From: Thermoleophilia bacterium
GTDB lineage: Bacteria > Actinomycetota > Thermoleophilia > Miltoncostaeales > Miltoncostaeaceae
NCBI GenBank assembly: GCA_009694365.1
Contig: SHVE01000011.1
Coordinates: 1 to 60,334 of the forward strand
Direction: 5' to 3'
Length of the DNA stretch: 60,334 bases
Of this stretch, positions 1 through 60,334 are shown piece by piece. The notes beneath the pieces were generated by a model that made no database searches, was not told the DNA's origin, and was given only the letters and a program-made list of their open reading frames with translations. Each line of letters starts with the position of its first letter. Position 1 is the first letter of the stretch. A program made the position numbers and the translations under genes.

Positions 1-260
1 CGCCAAAGGACCAGGGCCGTGAGCGCAACGGTCTTACCATTCTGCCGCGCGACCGACACGAGACTCCGCCGATGAATGAGGTCGCCGCTTTCGTCGTGTT
101 CTAGTTGGCCGGAGATTGCGTGAACCTGCCACGGCATCAAGGTCATGCCCAGGTGTTCGAGGGCGAGCGCCGCCACCTCGGAGCCGTAGGACTCACCCCC
201 CGTTAGTGGTGTTTCGAGCCGGGGCGTGGTGGGTCCGGCCGCTGGACCGAGGCAGTCCAC
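1..260 (-). CDS. phage terminase large subunit, N-terminal part (runs off left edge)
   Basis: This is the ATPase that powers DNA packaging into a phage head; only the N-terminal ~86 codons lie in the window. Read leftwards from a GTG at 258-260, the product contains LMPWQ about 41 residues in (codons around 126-137), then a region ending in VSVARQNGKT near positions 33-60, which matches the adenine-binding and Walker A region of Terminase_1-type large subunits. The spacing from the GTG to MPWQ is as usual for the family. The same frame stays open upstream to an ATG at 561-563, but those ~100 extra codons are Arg/Pro-rich and resemble nothing I know, so the shorter start is preferred. No holin, portal or integrase is visible because the rest lies outside. 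It sits next to a tRNA 3' fragment, consistent with a prophage end. Confidence 0.75.
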   Translation of the reverse strand, partial: MDCLGPAAGPTTPRLETPLTGGESYGSEVAALALEHLGMTLMPWQVHAISGQLEHDESGDLIHRRSLVSVARQNGKTVALTALVLW

Positions 261-680
261 ATCGCGGCAGCGGCCGATGAGCCAGCGACCATCGCCTACA
301 TCGAGGATCTGGTGACCGCAGCCGCGCCGGCCGGCTACCAGCCGCCGCCGGTTCCTGCCTCCGCGGGGCCCGCGCGTCGGGTCGTACCCGGGGAGGGGGT
401 GCGGAGTGGCATCGCGTCTGGCGGCAACGGTCTCGTGGCAGGGGGTCGGGACATCGAGTGACCAGCACGGACCACATTCAGAGGGCAACGGCTCGCCGCC
501 CGCGTGCTCGTCAAGCGCCCTCGGACTGTCTGAGCGCGCAGGACAACGGGGCCCTGGCGCCATCCTCGCCGTACCGGATGCGGGCAACGGGTAGATGGGT
601 CGACCCTCGCTCGCGTCGGTGACCCCCCGGTGACACCCCAGCCCGCACAGAAGCGTTCTAAGCGGGGGGTTACCGCCTTA
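261..680. other. no recognisable gene between terminase start and tRNA fragment
   Basis: About 420 bases. The terminase frame remains open through 563, but the translation is low-complexity Arg/Pro-rich, and other frames give only similar short products. A small terminase subunit would be expected here in an intact phage and is not recognisable. Confidence 0.4.
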
Positions 681-722
681 CTCGTAATGAAGGGGTCAGC
701 GGTTCGAATCCGCTCGTCGGCT
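681..722 (+). other. tRNA-Thr(CGT) 3' fragment, putative phage attachment site
   Basis: The stretch begins with a tRNA anticodon loop (CTCGTAA, 681-687, anticodon CGT at 683-685) and continues through a perfect T arm (stem 698-702 with 710-714 around loop TTCGAAT) to the 3' acceptor strand CGTCGGC (715-721) and discriminator T at 722. No CCA follows. The 5' half is absent: nothing upstream pairs with the acceptor strand, there is no D arm, and the 5' side of the anticodon stem does not match. A tRNA gene cut at the anticodon loop, next to phage terminase, is the typical footprint of tyrosine-integrase insertion. Host DNA would be to the right and prophage to the left. Confidence 0.65.
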
Positions 723-931
723 CTCACTTTTCCCACTCCTATGCGGTTTTCCACATCGCGAAGTAGTCAGCAATGGCCACATTGTGGCGGCTGAGAGGCG
801 GCCAGCCCAATCAAGTCGAGTGGCGGGACCCTTAGGCCGTTCGCTGCGATAGGCAGTAGGCGTGGCGCGCACTCGGTCCGGGAGAATCCGAATCATCAGG
901 TGGACCCGTCGTTGTCCCCCCAAGTAGGAGA

Positions 932-3416: not shown

Positions 3417-4558
3417 TGCGGGTCCTTGCGGTGCTCGGGATCGTTCTCTGGGGCCTTGCGGGGACTGCCGTCGCGAGCACGGAACCCCTTTTGCGTCCGG
3501 CCGACGGCGAAGCCTTCTTCGGTGACGTGGTCGCCGCGGCGCCGCGGGATGCGACGAGGGCCACCGTCAGCAGTCGTGGAGTGGTCCGACAGGTGAGGAT
3601 TTTCGGGGGGTTTCTTCGCACCACCGTCTCGGGGGCGCCGGGGCCACGCGGAGTCACGGTCGTTTTCCGCGGACCGGACGGCTACCCGATCGTCACGCGA
3701 CGGACCTCAGGTGCCTACCTCCTACCGGCCTCCGGGGCGGTGGCGGTCCCGGGATCACGACGGTCGGTGGCGCTTGAGCGGTCCCTCGCACGCATCGCGT
3801 CACGGCACACGGGCGTTACCGGGATTTGGGTCCAGCGTCTGTGGGACGGACGCACGGCCGGGGTGAACGCGGACGCAGAGTTCCCCGCCGGCAGCCTCGT
3901 GAAACTCCCGCTCGTTGTGGGGTCGGTGATGCGCATGGGTCGTCACCCCTGGCGGCATCCGGCGTGGCGCGACGTCGTCGCCGTGCTCACCCGCAGCGAT
4001 AACAGCGCTGCGAACAACCTGATGAAGCGCTTCGGTTCCGGGTGCGGGACGGCCGCCGATGCCACCGCGGCCGACGGGCTCCGTCGCCTTGGGGCCCGCC
4101 AGAGCACGTTCACCGACTGTTACCTGACCGAGGACGAGCTCCAGCCCCGCCTCCCGGACGGAGGCCGCACGAGTACACCGGCGTGGTCCAACCGTCACAC
4201 CACCGCGCGGGACATGGGCCGGATGCTCTTCGCACTCCACGCCGCCGCCGTTCCAACCCGCGCGGGAACTCGGCAGACCGGCATCGATTCGCTGCGGGCG
4301 CGATTGATCATCGATCAACTCCTCCAGGCGGTCCAAGTGGGGCAGAACGCGAACCTGTTTGTGGATGGACTTCCCGCGGAGACCCCGCTCGCCGGGAAGA
4401 ACGGGTGGAGGAAGAACGAGCAGCACAGTGCAACGCTTGCTTACGTGCGACGCGGACCACTCATCCTGGTTGTCCTCACGCAACACACGACCGGGGCCAA
4501 CGTGGCCGATGCCCGGGCTATCGGCCGCGAGGTCGCCCAAGCCGCGAACGGGGCATGA
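3416..4558 (+). CDS. class A beta-lactamase-like serine hydrolase, exported
   Basis: 380 residues with an N-terminal hydrophobic signal (residues 1-21, ending VAS). After an ~100-residue region without known domain comes a class A beta-lactamase/PBP-like fold: SxxK as S160-L-V-K163, SDN at 194-196 and a KNG triad at 328-330 standing in for KTG. All three active-site motifs are present, so a serine acyl-enzyme mechanism is likely. Whether it destroys beta-lactams or acts on cell wall peptides cannot be told. The start ATG overlaps the ctaG stop, implying translational coupling, and a Mur ligase-like gene follows, which favours a cell-wall context. Confidence 0.75.
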   Translation: MRVLAVLGIVLWGLAGTAVASTEPLLRPADGEAFFGDVVAAAPRDATRATVSSRGVVRQVRIFGGFLRTTVSGAPGPRGVTVVFRGPDGYPIVTRRTSGAYLLPASGAVAVPGSRRSVALERSLARIASRHTGVTGIWVQRLWDGRTAGVNADAEFPAGSLVKLPLVVGSVMRMGRHPWRHPAWRDVVAVLTRSDNSAANNLMKRFGSGCGTAADATAADGLRRLGARQSTFTDCYLTEDELQPRLPDGGRTSTPAWSNRHTTARDMGRMLFALHAAAVPTRAGTRQTGIDSLRARLIIDQLLQAVQVGQNANLFVDGLPAETPLAGKNGWRKNEQHSATLAYVRRGPLILVVLTQHTTGANVADARAIGREVAQAANGA

Positions 4559-4734
4559 TCTGAAACCCCTTGCACATGGAGAGACGTTGACTGACCATGT
4601 GACGTCCGGCCGGAGACTCGGGCTGTGGGCATGGGGTCGGTGATGCACGCGCAGCGATCATCTCCCCCACTGCGTGATGTCGTGGTCGATGAACCCGGTG
4701 TCGTGGTTCCGGTCCGGTTGGGCGACGGGTCATC

Positions 4735-6006
4735 GTGAGGTACGACGACCCTCTCCGTCTGGAGGGAGCATCGGTACGAATCCTCGCCCGTGGCCCGGAC
4801 GCCCGAGCGGTGGCGATGCTGGTCACCGCTGCGGAGGGCGCCCAGGTCCTCACCCACGCCGACCCTCGTCACCCGGACATTCTGGTGGTGGACGAGTGGA
4901 CCCCGGAGCATCACCCAACTGTGGTCGCGGCCCGATCCGCGGGAACCCGCGTAACCGTGCTCGCAGAGATGATCCTCGACCGTGCGCTCGGTCCCGTGGT
5001 CGGTGTTACGGGGACCGCCGGAAAAACGTCCACCTGTCACGCGCTCGCCGCGATCCTCAGCACGTGCGGCCGGGGTGCGGCGATGAGTCGGACCGCCCCA
5101 TCGTCCAACGCGTGGCTCGATCACTCGATGGCGGAGGCGGACCTCGGCCCCGACCGCGTTCTGGTCGCCGAGATCACCTCCACCCACCTGTGCCACATGG
5201 ACATCCCCCGGGGTCCGGACGTTGCGGTCATCACCACCATCCGCCCGGATCACGCCGATCTGCACCCCGGTTTCTCCGCCTACGTCGCGGCCAAGCGGCG
5301 CCTTCTCGACGCACAGACGGAGTCCGACGCTGTGGTCCTACCGTCGGACGATCCCGAGACAGTTCGACACCTGCGGGGCGTTCGTGCCCGGGTGTGGCAC
5401 TTCGGGGCCACCGACAGCGGCGACGACGGCGCATTCGTCGGGCCGGGCGGCGTGGTGCTCCGGTCCGGCGACCACACCGCGGTGTGCACCCCTCCCACGG
5501 GATTGGCACCGTTCGTGCGGTCCACGCTGGCCGCCGCCACCGCGGCCCTCGCACTCGGCGTCCCGCTGGATGAGGTGGCCGCCGCCGTTCCCGCCCTCCT
5601 CCCCTCACCCCACCGATTGGCCCCGGTGGGGACATTCCGGGGTGCCCGAATCGTCGATGACACCATGGCCGCAACCCCGATGAAGTGCCGTGCCGGGGTG
5701 GACGCCTACGCGGATCAGCGACCGGTCGTGGTCCTCGGAGGCGACCTCGCACCGGGCCACGACTTGCGCGAACTTGCCGCCGCACTCATCCACGTGAGTG
5801 AAACCGCTGCCGATGTTGTTGCGTTCGGCCCCGCAGCGGACACCGTCACCGCGCGTATCGGGGTTCGGGCCGCCGCACTTACCGTCTCCGGCGCCGTGGG
5901 AATCGCCGCGACCCTTGCCGGTCCGGGCGGCCTTGTGCTGGTGAGCCCGATGTTCCCGATGACACCGGACGAACGCGACCGGATCGCGGCCCTCGCCGAC
6001 CGTTAG
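4735..6006 (+). CDS. Mur ligase family protein, MurD-like
   Basis: 423 residues, starting at GTG 4735; a stop lies in frame about 40 bases upstream and no better start exists. It has the Mur ligase layout: a short N-terminal Rossmann-like domain (residues ~1-90), an ATP-binding loop GVTGTAGKTST (~92-102), a central domain with ITTIRPDHADLH and an AYVAAKRRLL helix, and a C-terminal domain with VVVLGGD. This is most like MurD (UDP-MurNAc-L-Ala:D-Glu ligase), but the N-terminal domain lacks the usual MurD substrate loop. The gene stands alone rather than in a dcw cluster, so it is probably a paralogue. It converges with the downstream gene, sharing 4 bases of 3' end. Confidence 0.7.
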   Translation: MRYDDPLRLEGASVRILARGPDARAVAMLVTAAEGAQVLTHADPRHPDILVVDEWTPEHHPTVVAARSAGTRVTVLAEMILDRALGPVVGVTGTAGKTSTCHALAAILSTCGRGAAMSRTAPSSNAWLDHSMAEADLGPDRVLVAEITSTHLCHMDIPRGPDVAVITTIRPDHADLHPGFSAYVAAKRRLLDAQTESDAVVLPSDDPETVRHLRGVRARVWHFGATDSGDDGAFVGPGGVVLRSGDHTAVCTPPTGLAPFVRSTLAAATAALALGVPLDEVAAAVPALLPSPHRLAPVGTFRGARIVDDTMAATPMKCRAGVDAYADQRPVVVLGGDLAPGHDLRELAAALIHVSETAADVVAFGPAADTVTARIGVRAAALTVSGAVGIAATLAGPGGLVLVSPMFPMTPDERDRIAALADR

Positions 6007-58204: not shown

Positions 58205-60334
58205 CTACTCGCCCATCACCGGAGCGGAGACCTGCGCGGTGCGGGGGACCTCTTTGAACTCGAAGACCTCGACAACGTCGCCCTCCTTGACGTCGTTGTA
58301 GTCCTCGATCAGCACACCGCACTCGAATCCCTGCTGGACCTCTCGCACGTCGTCGTTCACCCGTCGGAGCGATCCGATCCGTCCGACGTGTACCACCGTG
58401 CCATCCCGTACCAAGCGACAATCGGCTCCACGGCGAGCGAGGCCGTCCGTGACGTAGCACCCCGCGATCGTGCCGATACGACTCGCCTTGAACGTGGCGC
58501 GGACCTCGAGGGTTCCCATGGATTCCTCCACGATGTCCGGGGCGAGAAGCCCAACCAAGGCGTCGCGCACATCCTCGATAGCACGGTAGATGACGCGATA
58601 GGTGCGCACGTCGACGCCCTCGCGGTCGGCCAGCAACTTGGCCTCGGGCCGGGGACGTACGTTGAACCCAATGATGATCGCCTGCGAGGCGGCGGCAAGC
58701 ATGACATCGCTCTCGGTGACCGCACCCACACCGGTGTGGATGATCTTGAGGCTCACCTCGGTCTGCTCCACCTTGTTCAGGGCATCCTCGAGGGCGCCGA
58801 CCGACCCCTGCACATCGCCCTTGATGATGATGTTGAGTTCCTTGACCCCGCCTTCCTTGACACGCGCGAAGAGGTCCTCCAAGGACACGGGTCGGCGGTT
58901 GGCGAGTGCCTCCGCACGCAGCCTCTGACTGCGGATTGCGGCGATCTGGCGTGCGAGGCGCTCCGTCCCGACCGCACGGAACTTCTCGCCGGCGTCCGGA
59001 ACGCCGTCGAGACCGAGGATCTCCACCGGAACCGACGGACCGGCCTCGCCCATCGGCTGGCCGTTGTAGTCGAGCATGGCGCGCACACGGCCGAATGTCT
59101 CCCCCGCAACCAGGATGTCTCCCACCCGCATGGTTCCCCGCTGCACGAGCAGAGTGCAGACCGGGCCACGACCGGGATCAAGACGCGACTCCACCACCGT
59201 GCCCGATGCTTCGACCCCGGGGTTAGCCGTGGGCTCCGCATCGGCATCGGCAACGAGGAGCACAGTCTCCACAAGTTCATCAAGGCCATCCCCGCGCTGC
59301 GCGGACACGCTCACGAACTCGGTATTGCCGCCCCAGTCGGACGGAATGACGTCCCGGATGGCGAATTCCTGCTTCACCTTGTCCGGGTTCGCACCCTCCT
59401 TGTCGATCTTGTTGATCGCCACGACGAACGGAACGCCAGCGGCCCGTGCATGATCGATGGCCTCGATGGTCTGGGGCATGACGCCGTCGTCGGCAGCCAC
59501 CACGATGACGGCCACGTCGGTGATTTTGGCACCGCGGGCACGCATGGCGGTAAACGCTTCGTGGCCCGGCGTGTCGAGAAACGTCACGTCACGCGAGCCG
59601 TGATGCACCTGGTAGGCACCGATGTGCTGGGTGATGCCGCCGGCCTCGCCCGCCGCCACCTCGGTGCGACGAATGGCGTCGAGAAGGGACGTTTTCCCGT
59701 GGTCCACGTGACCCATGACGGTTACCACCGGGGCGCGGGGCACCAGATCGGCAGGGTCGTCGTCGTAGACGGCCTCCAGATCCGGCTCCTCCTCCGCGTG
59801 GATGATGGTGATCTTTCGCTCACGATCCGCGGCGATGAGCTCGATGGCGTCGTCCGAGAGGGACTGGGTGATCGTGACGAGATCACCCATGGTCATCATG
59901 AACTTGATGATCTCTGAGGACGGCGTGCCGAGGCCCTCGGCGAGTTCCTTGACCGTTGCGCCCGACCGGATATCCACCGACGGCATGTCGGCCGGGTTTT
60001 GCTGAGGCAGGGCCACGGCGTCCCCGTGATCCCTCGGGCCACGTCGGCCCGCGCGATCACGGCCACCACCACCCTGACGTCGGCTGGCTTGGGCATCGAT
60101 GACCACCCGACGCTTGCGGCCACGAGCACCGGCACCAGCGGCAGCACGGATCCCACCGGTGCCACGCGGCGGAAGGGTGCCCGAACGCCCCCGGTCCCCC
60201 GGGGCACCGACAGCGGGACTCTCAGGCTCACTCTGTGCGGCCGGGTTCGGCGGGTTCGGCGGGTTCGGCGGGTTCGGCGGGTTCGGCGGGTTCGGCGGGT
60301 TCGGCGGGTTCGGCGGGTTCGGCGGGTTCGGCGG
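58205..60334 (-). CDS. infB: translation initiation factor IF-2 (start lies beyond the window)
   Basis: At least 710 codons. An N-terminal low-complexity arm starts with (Asn-Pro-Pro) repeats, then basic Gly/Arg stretches, then the IF2_N domain ([19 protein letters not shown]). The GTPase has [14 protein letters not shown] (G1), [10 protein letters not shown] (G3) and AINKIDKEG (G4), followed by domains II-IV. It positions fMet-tRNA on the 30S subunit. The frame remains open to the window end, so GTG 60106 is not the true start. Confidence 0.95.
60242..60334. repeat. 9-base tandem repeat in the IF-2 N-terminal region
   Basis: At least ten copies of GGGTTCGGC (+ strand), without a mismatch, run to the window end. 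In the infB frame they encode Asn-Pro-Pro repeats. The repeat continues beyond the window, so copy number is unknown. Confidence 0.95.

Follow-up and report, generated by a model that had tools for sequence, protein, structure and literature searches.

The left end of the 60,334-nucleotide stretch analyzed here (the window) probably belongs to a mosaic island, now decayed, that sits in a tRNA-Thr(CGT) insertion hotspot, with the tRNA-Thr fragment found there being a 3' end displaced by site-specific insertion. The 680 bases inside the fragment consist of a large terminase piece, the end of an endonuclease gene on the opposite strand and a short module, with the terminase most likely there as a passenger.

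Results

The source genome (G000) comprises 1,496,510 bases in 19 contigs, with a completeness of 98.14% and a contamination of 0.21%. The window is all of contig C11 (G000:C11:1-60334), and therefore its left edge, where both the tRNA fragment and the terminase piece sit, is a contig end. At the opposite end, the last 93 bases (60242-60334) align with the end of contig C15 in three registers, each shifted by 9 bases, a pattern suggestive of a tandem repeat with a 9-base unit at that contig break. The initial annotation had described a fragment of tRNA-Thr(CGT) cut at the anticodon loop, and this proved correct. Window positions 680-723 (+) correspond to tRNA positions 31-74, the match beginning in the anticodon stem-loop, and form an attR-like 3' fragment that is identical at 43 of 44 bases to the genome's own tRNA-Thr(CGT); window 680-725 is identical at all 46 bases to the end of the tRNA-Thr gene of genome G018. 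ARAGORN called no complete tRNA at 680-723. Integrases that target tRNA genes commonly recombine at the anticodon stem-loop. An open frame at 335-754 (-) was dismissed as spurious, as it has no Pfam match and overlaps the tRNA fragment.

An intact tRNA-Thr with the same 3' sequence had been predicted on the far side of the element, and such a gene was found at C6:402-475 (-), one base different from the window fragment; the first 2,000 window bases, used as query, hit no further tRNA-Thr(CGT) in G000. On contig C6 this predicted gene is separated from the left end by 401 bases and has a suitable orientation, with its 3' side toward the gap. Its placement relies on G018, where a single contig of 455,217 bases holds, in order, an aldo/keto reductase, a multicopper oxidase, tRNA-Thr and relatives of C6 genes. 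Because relatives of C11 genes, tRNA-Thr and relatives of C6 genes are in line there, C11 and C6 appear to border one insertion site, each with its left end, and by synteny the two contigs would face each other over one gap. The stretch between C6:1 and C11:1 is unassembled, both contigs ending inside the interval. On the C11 side, the aldo/keto reductase gene (932-2065, -) belongs to the chromosomal flank, and its neighbourhood with tRNA-Thr is kept in relatives. On the C6 side, C6:1-156 codes a helicase-like piece that soon stops, with 43% identity over 35 residues (E = 7e-4) to a putative RecQ, a name read from translations. Weak matches to this piece occurred in two class-level genomes, and searches of Pfam, PHROG and PDB gave no meaningful match (one PDB row, E = 0.38). 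The resemblance between the two sides extends beyond the tRNA itself, as about 60 bases 3' of the fragment (722-781, +) are like the tail of the intact gene: window 680-781 is 82% identical to C6, and 676-778 is 85% identical to the first fragment of G012. Since this tail is alike on both sides, recombination between longer repeats could also make or move such fragments.

The large terminase noted at the left edge was confirmed by a PHROG_9 match and by viral relatives, with homology confined to about positions 3-239 (-). These ~80 residues, from the N-terminal half, correspond to about residues 133-211 of a 592-residue HNH-terminase protein on viral contig L043; the gene runs off the contig end, which cuts this copy short. 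The match to PHROG_9 (terminase large subunit) had an E-value of 2.5e-10 for the 195-aa open frame (3-587) and of 2.8e-11 for window 3-245 alone, over about 76 residues, which identifies the piece as a homolog of this family. The open frame 3-587 as a single terminase was rejected, as homology stops near 240 and the rest reads over the endonuclease gene end on the opposite strand. At least 600 viral-contig pattern matches were obtained, at least 544 of them coding a terminase relative, and the best 80 of these showed 46-74% identity over the matched segment and were borne by viral contigs of about 4-23 kb. Among annotated phages there were 179 matching records, all below 60% identity, with Gordonia phages of 17 kb at the top. 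The Gordonia phages McGonagall, Jeanie and GMA5 (~17 kb, phrog_9-type terminase) share 43-45% identity over the terminase piece and carry their terminase near the genome end, like the window piece at its edge. In contrast to these phages, the window holds only an 80-residue piece, with no further phage structural gene found beside it. The 592 matching genome-contig stretches listed in the terminase-piece scan included at least one relative (Armatimonadetes MAG, 36%). No match to the terminase part was found in the 19 other genus genomes searched, G004 and G017 matching only the non-terminase part of the query.

A second terminase copy lies at the right end of C6 (C6:92603-92847) and is 94% identical to window 1-245 over 245 bases. 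It is truncated and carries a one-base frameshift directly after the residues LVLW; a stop within 20 codons after LVLW was seen in none of the 80 best viral sequences kept. Homology of this copy ends at C6:92943, beside an exact repeat common to the C1 and C5 ends. An exact repeat of 93-133 bases is present at the C1 end (L126), the C5 start (L112) and the C6 end (L007), beginning at the breakpoint of the second copy. The window and the frameshifted C6 copy agree in the two bases that follow the Trp codon of LVLW, a state likewise seen in none of the 80 viral sequences. This is suggestive only, the argument consisting of two bases at a contig end, that the window terminase may share the frameshift. 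Over 243 aligned coding bases, 11 of the 15 differences between the copies fall at third positions (binomial P = 0.002), and the change is synonymous in 10 of the 13 codons affected. Such mostly third-position differences suggest that the copies diverged while functional, which fits badly with one shared broken ancestor. In all, five G000 pieces match the viral HNH-terminase protein (two on C6 and one each on C11, C5 and C16), and all are within 1 kb of contig ends. Those at C5:108645-108902 and C16:466-702 are HNH-endonuclease pieces resembling the HNH fused to the viral terminase, and no terminase match was found alongside either of them. A genome-wide search of G000 for PF20441 (TerL_nuclease) was negative, the same search being positive in 3 of 14 control genomes.

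Beyond these terminase pieces, the portal from a viral relative gave no match in assembled G000, of which the interval is not part (a search run without a positive control). Only two PF00589 integrases are present in the assembled genome, adjacent on C1, and we read them as an Xer-like pair. A phmmer search with the long open frames of the C1 loci across 20 hotspot stretches, the window, L006 and L007 returned one weak hit, from an antisense query frame; it was a poor search, having missed PF00589 matches in L191 and L196. At six other contig ends bearing scraps or the repeat described above (C6 end, C3 end, C5 end, C16 start, C1 end and C5 start), no tRNA 3' end was detected with 15 tRNA types, less than the genome's full set. 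The earlier view of this locus as a prophage edge therefore held in part: a tRNA-Thr insertion site with a terminase piece is there, but the assembled genome yielded no portal match and only the Xer-like integrase pair. Within the assembled sequence, a check for an integrase, phage genes and a complete tRNA found the complete tRNA-Thr on the far side, but neither an integrase near the site nor a portal match. That the element might be degraded or rearranged was upheld by the mosaic of gene pieces at the edge and by the frameshifted, truncated second terminase copy.

Next to the terminase piece and on the strand opposite to it, positions 243-338 (+) encode the C terminus of a treble-clef zinc-finger (PF14311) endonuclease, with 72% identity to residues 393-423 of a gene on G004:C2; a similar gene end is present in G017:C69. 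The part preceding the zinc-finger end of that endonuclease gene is presumably GIY-YIG-like. This is followed by a ~360-base module (317-679) with nucleotide matches 83% identical in G004:C81 and 81% identical in G019:C114, and its part 322-603 is 81% identical in G003:C26. Any match to the module was found in 7 of 41 genomes, the source genome included, and those outside G004, G019 and G003 were short. In G004 and G019 the module stops at a tRNA-Thr fragment, as it does in the window, and in all three genomes a pentapeptide-repeat gene lies beyond it (in G019 as an N-terminal part of 85 residues, identified through its similarity to a G012 protein). In G003:C26 (L237, 10525-10978) the module part is near a complete tRNA-Arg(CCT), about 110 bases from its 5' end.

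tRNA-Thr fragments were surveyed in 26 genomes, counting as a fragment any match starting at tRNA position 27 or later and leaving out matches starting earlier (likely other tRNA genes) and one 26-base match in G026. By this measure, 3' fragments are present in 5 of 16 genus genomes, the source genome included (G000, G004, G005, G012 with three, and G015), and in 1 of 10 class-level genomes (G026, with two); G019, outside this search, also has one. Judged from these sequences, the locus appears to be a repeated insertion site in the genus. In G012:C86 (L180), fragments at 146, 4038 and 8065, about 4 kb apart, bracket multicopper oxidase and pentapeptide-repeat genes, followed by metal-transporter-like and regulator-like genes (named by reading the translations). 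The same contig contains two aldo/keto reductase pieces in opposite orientations. ARAGORN called the middle fragment (L180 4010-4084) a complete tRNA-Thr, a call that was rejected: its 5' half is unrelated, its acceptor stem is poor and includes mismatched pairs, and its match to tRNA-Thr does not start before position 27. In G004:C81, an intact tRNA-Thr is 1.4 kb from the fragment, with the pentapeptide-repeat gene between them.

An integrase is found beside tRNA-Thr(CGT) in 2 of 9 class-level genomes (G025:C40:26180 and G026:C1:461172), the latter holding an internal stop and having tRNA-Thr fragments at a distance of about 18 kb. Among the PF00589 matches listed for the 16 genus genomes, several of whose tRNA contigs are short, none was close to tRNA-Thr or its fragments; on fragment-bearing genus contigs the list had only two short open frames, one each on G005:C24 and G015:C2, at 6-8 kb from the fragments. 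Relatives of the window 4558-4735 neighbourhood include a ~200-residue gene with a PF00589 match, its sequence seen in G001, G005 and G012 and, through tblastn, in G018, and PF00589 matches on the reductase contig also occur in G004, G006, G011, G014 and G015. This ~200-residue gene has no match within the window.

Discussion

The arrangement is best explained by insertion followed by decay, and we consider this account probable. An element with its own tRNA-Thr 3' end would have recombined at the anticodon stem-loop, restoring an intact tRNA gene (now on C6) and pushing the original 3' end away to what is now window 680-723. The island interior would later have decayed or recombined into a patchwork, leaving the terminase as a leftover piece that may no longer be a working packaging gene. 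By this reasoning, a tyrosine integrase presumably carried out the insertion, the patchwork would run on across the unassembled gap, and the window terminase would be dead. We favor this reading because the intact C6 tRNA faces the gap, with the G018 order and the fragments in genus relatives agreeing; because the module adjoins a tRNA-Thr fragment in G004:C81 and G019:C114 as well; because the C6 terminase copy is broken and the window shares the two bases after its Trp codon; and because integrases lie beside tRNA-Thr(CGT) in G025 and G026 and the C6:1-156 piece soon stops. Several observations count against it, namely the unassembled gap, the absence of an integrase near tRNA-Thr in the 16 genus genomes, the mostly synonymous differences between the terminase copies, the similar tail after the tRNA on both sides, and the G003 module, which is near a tRNA-Arg and not a tRNA-Thr fragment.

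An unlikely alternative is that a small actinophage-like virus is integrated in tRNA-Thr(CGT) as a genuine prophage, in which case coverage or strain variation would have lost the interior from the bin and left only two edges visible, the terminase on C11 and the helicase-like end on C6. Both contigs do end inside the interval and all five pieces matching the HNH-terminase are close to contig ends, which would suit such a loss, and the terminase has relatives in viral contigs of ~4-23 kb and in actinophages such as the 17 kb Gordonia phage McGonagall, its two copies differing mostly synonymously. Against this, the terminase piece abuts the opposite-strand endonuclease end and a module that goes with a pentapeptide-repeat gene in three relatives, the C6 copy is broken and truncated, assembled G000 has no integrase beyond the Xer-like pair and no portal match, and the terminase part is unmatched in the 19 other genus genomes.

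More doubtful is a serial array of short integrase-less units at tRNA-Thr(CGT), added and lost via an enzyme acting in trans; each unit would end in a tRNA-Thr 3' fragment and carry pentapeptide-repeat or other secreted-protein genes, with the phage pieces as passengers. It is improbable that the window's first few hundred bases arose as an artefact of assembly or binning, in which repeat-derived sequence was misjoined to a chromosomal tRNA-Thr fragment: many G000 contig ends do have exact or near-exact repeats in common, and another contig end holds the 94% copy of the terminase piece, but the module and fragment recur in the same order in the separate assemblies of G004 and G019, a recurrence that covers 317-679 plus the fragment and does not back part 1-316 as a unit.

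Islands at tRNA genes, including tandem arrays, and the tRNA fragments that betray them have been well documented (PMC4383910, PMC9897764). As in the Islander-mapped islands (PMC4383910), our decayed-island reading has a regenerated intact target tRNA gene at one end (C6:402-475, placed by G018 synteny) and a displaced 3' fragment in matching orientation at the other (window 680-723). Compared with those islands, the assembled part here has no integrase and the interval is unassembled, and the G004 interval measures only 1.4 kb, with a pentapeptide-repeat gene. Partial tRNA genes arise from integration and are expected to be pervasive (PMC9897764), and the window fragment is alike in being such a partial gene. 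Relative to what is outlined there, G012 differs in that a single contig carries three fragments of the same tRNA and no integrase match.

Overall, these results precisely locate a mobile-DNA hotspot in a small-genome genus, and they caution against taking a terminase next to a tRNA fragment as proof of a prophage. Should units that lack an integrase truly move in and out at this site, it would offer a simple setting in which to study mobilisation in trans.
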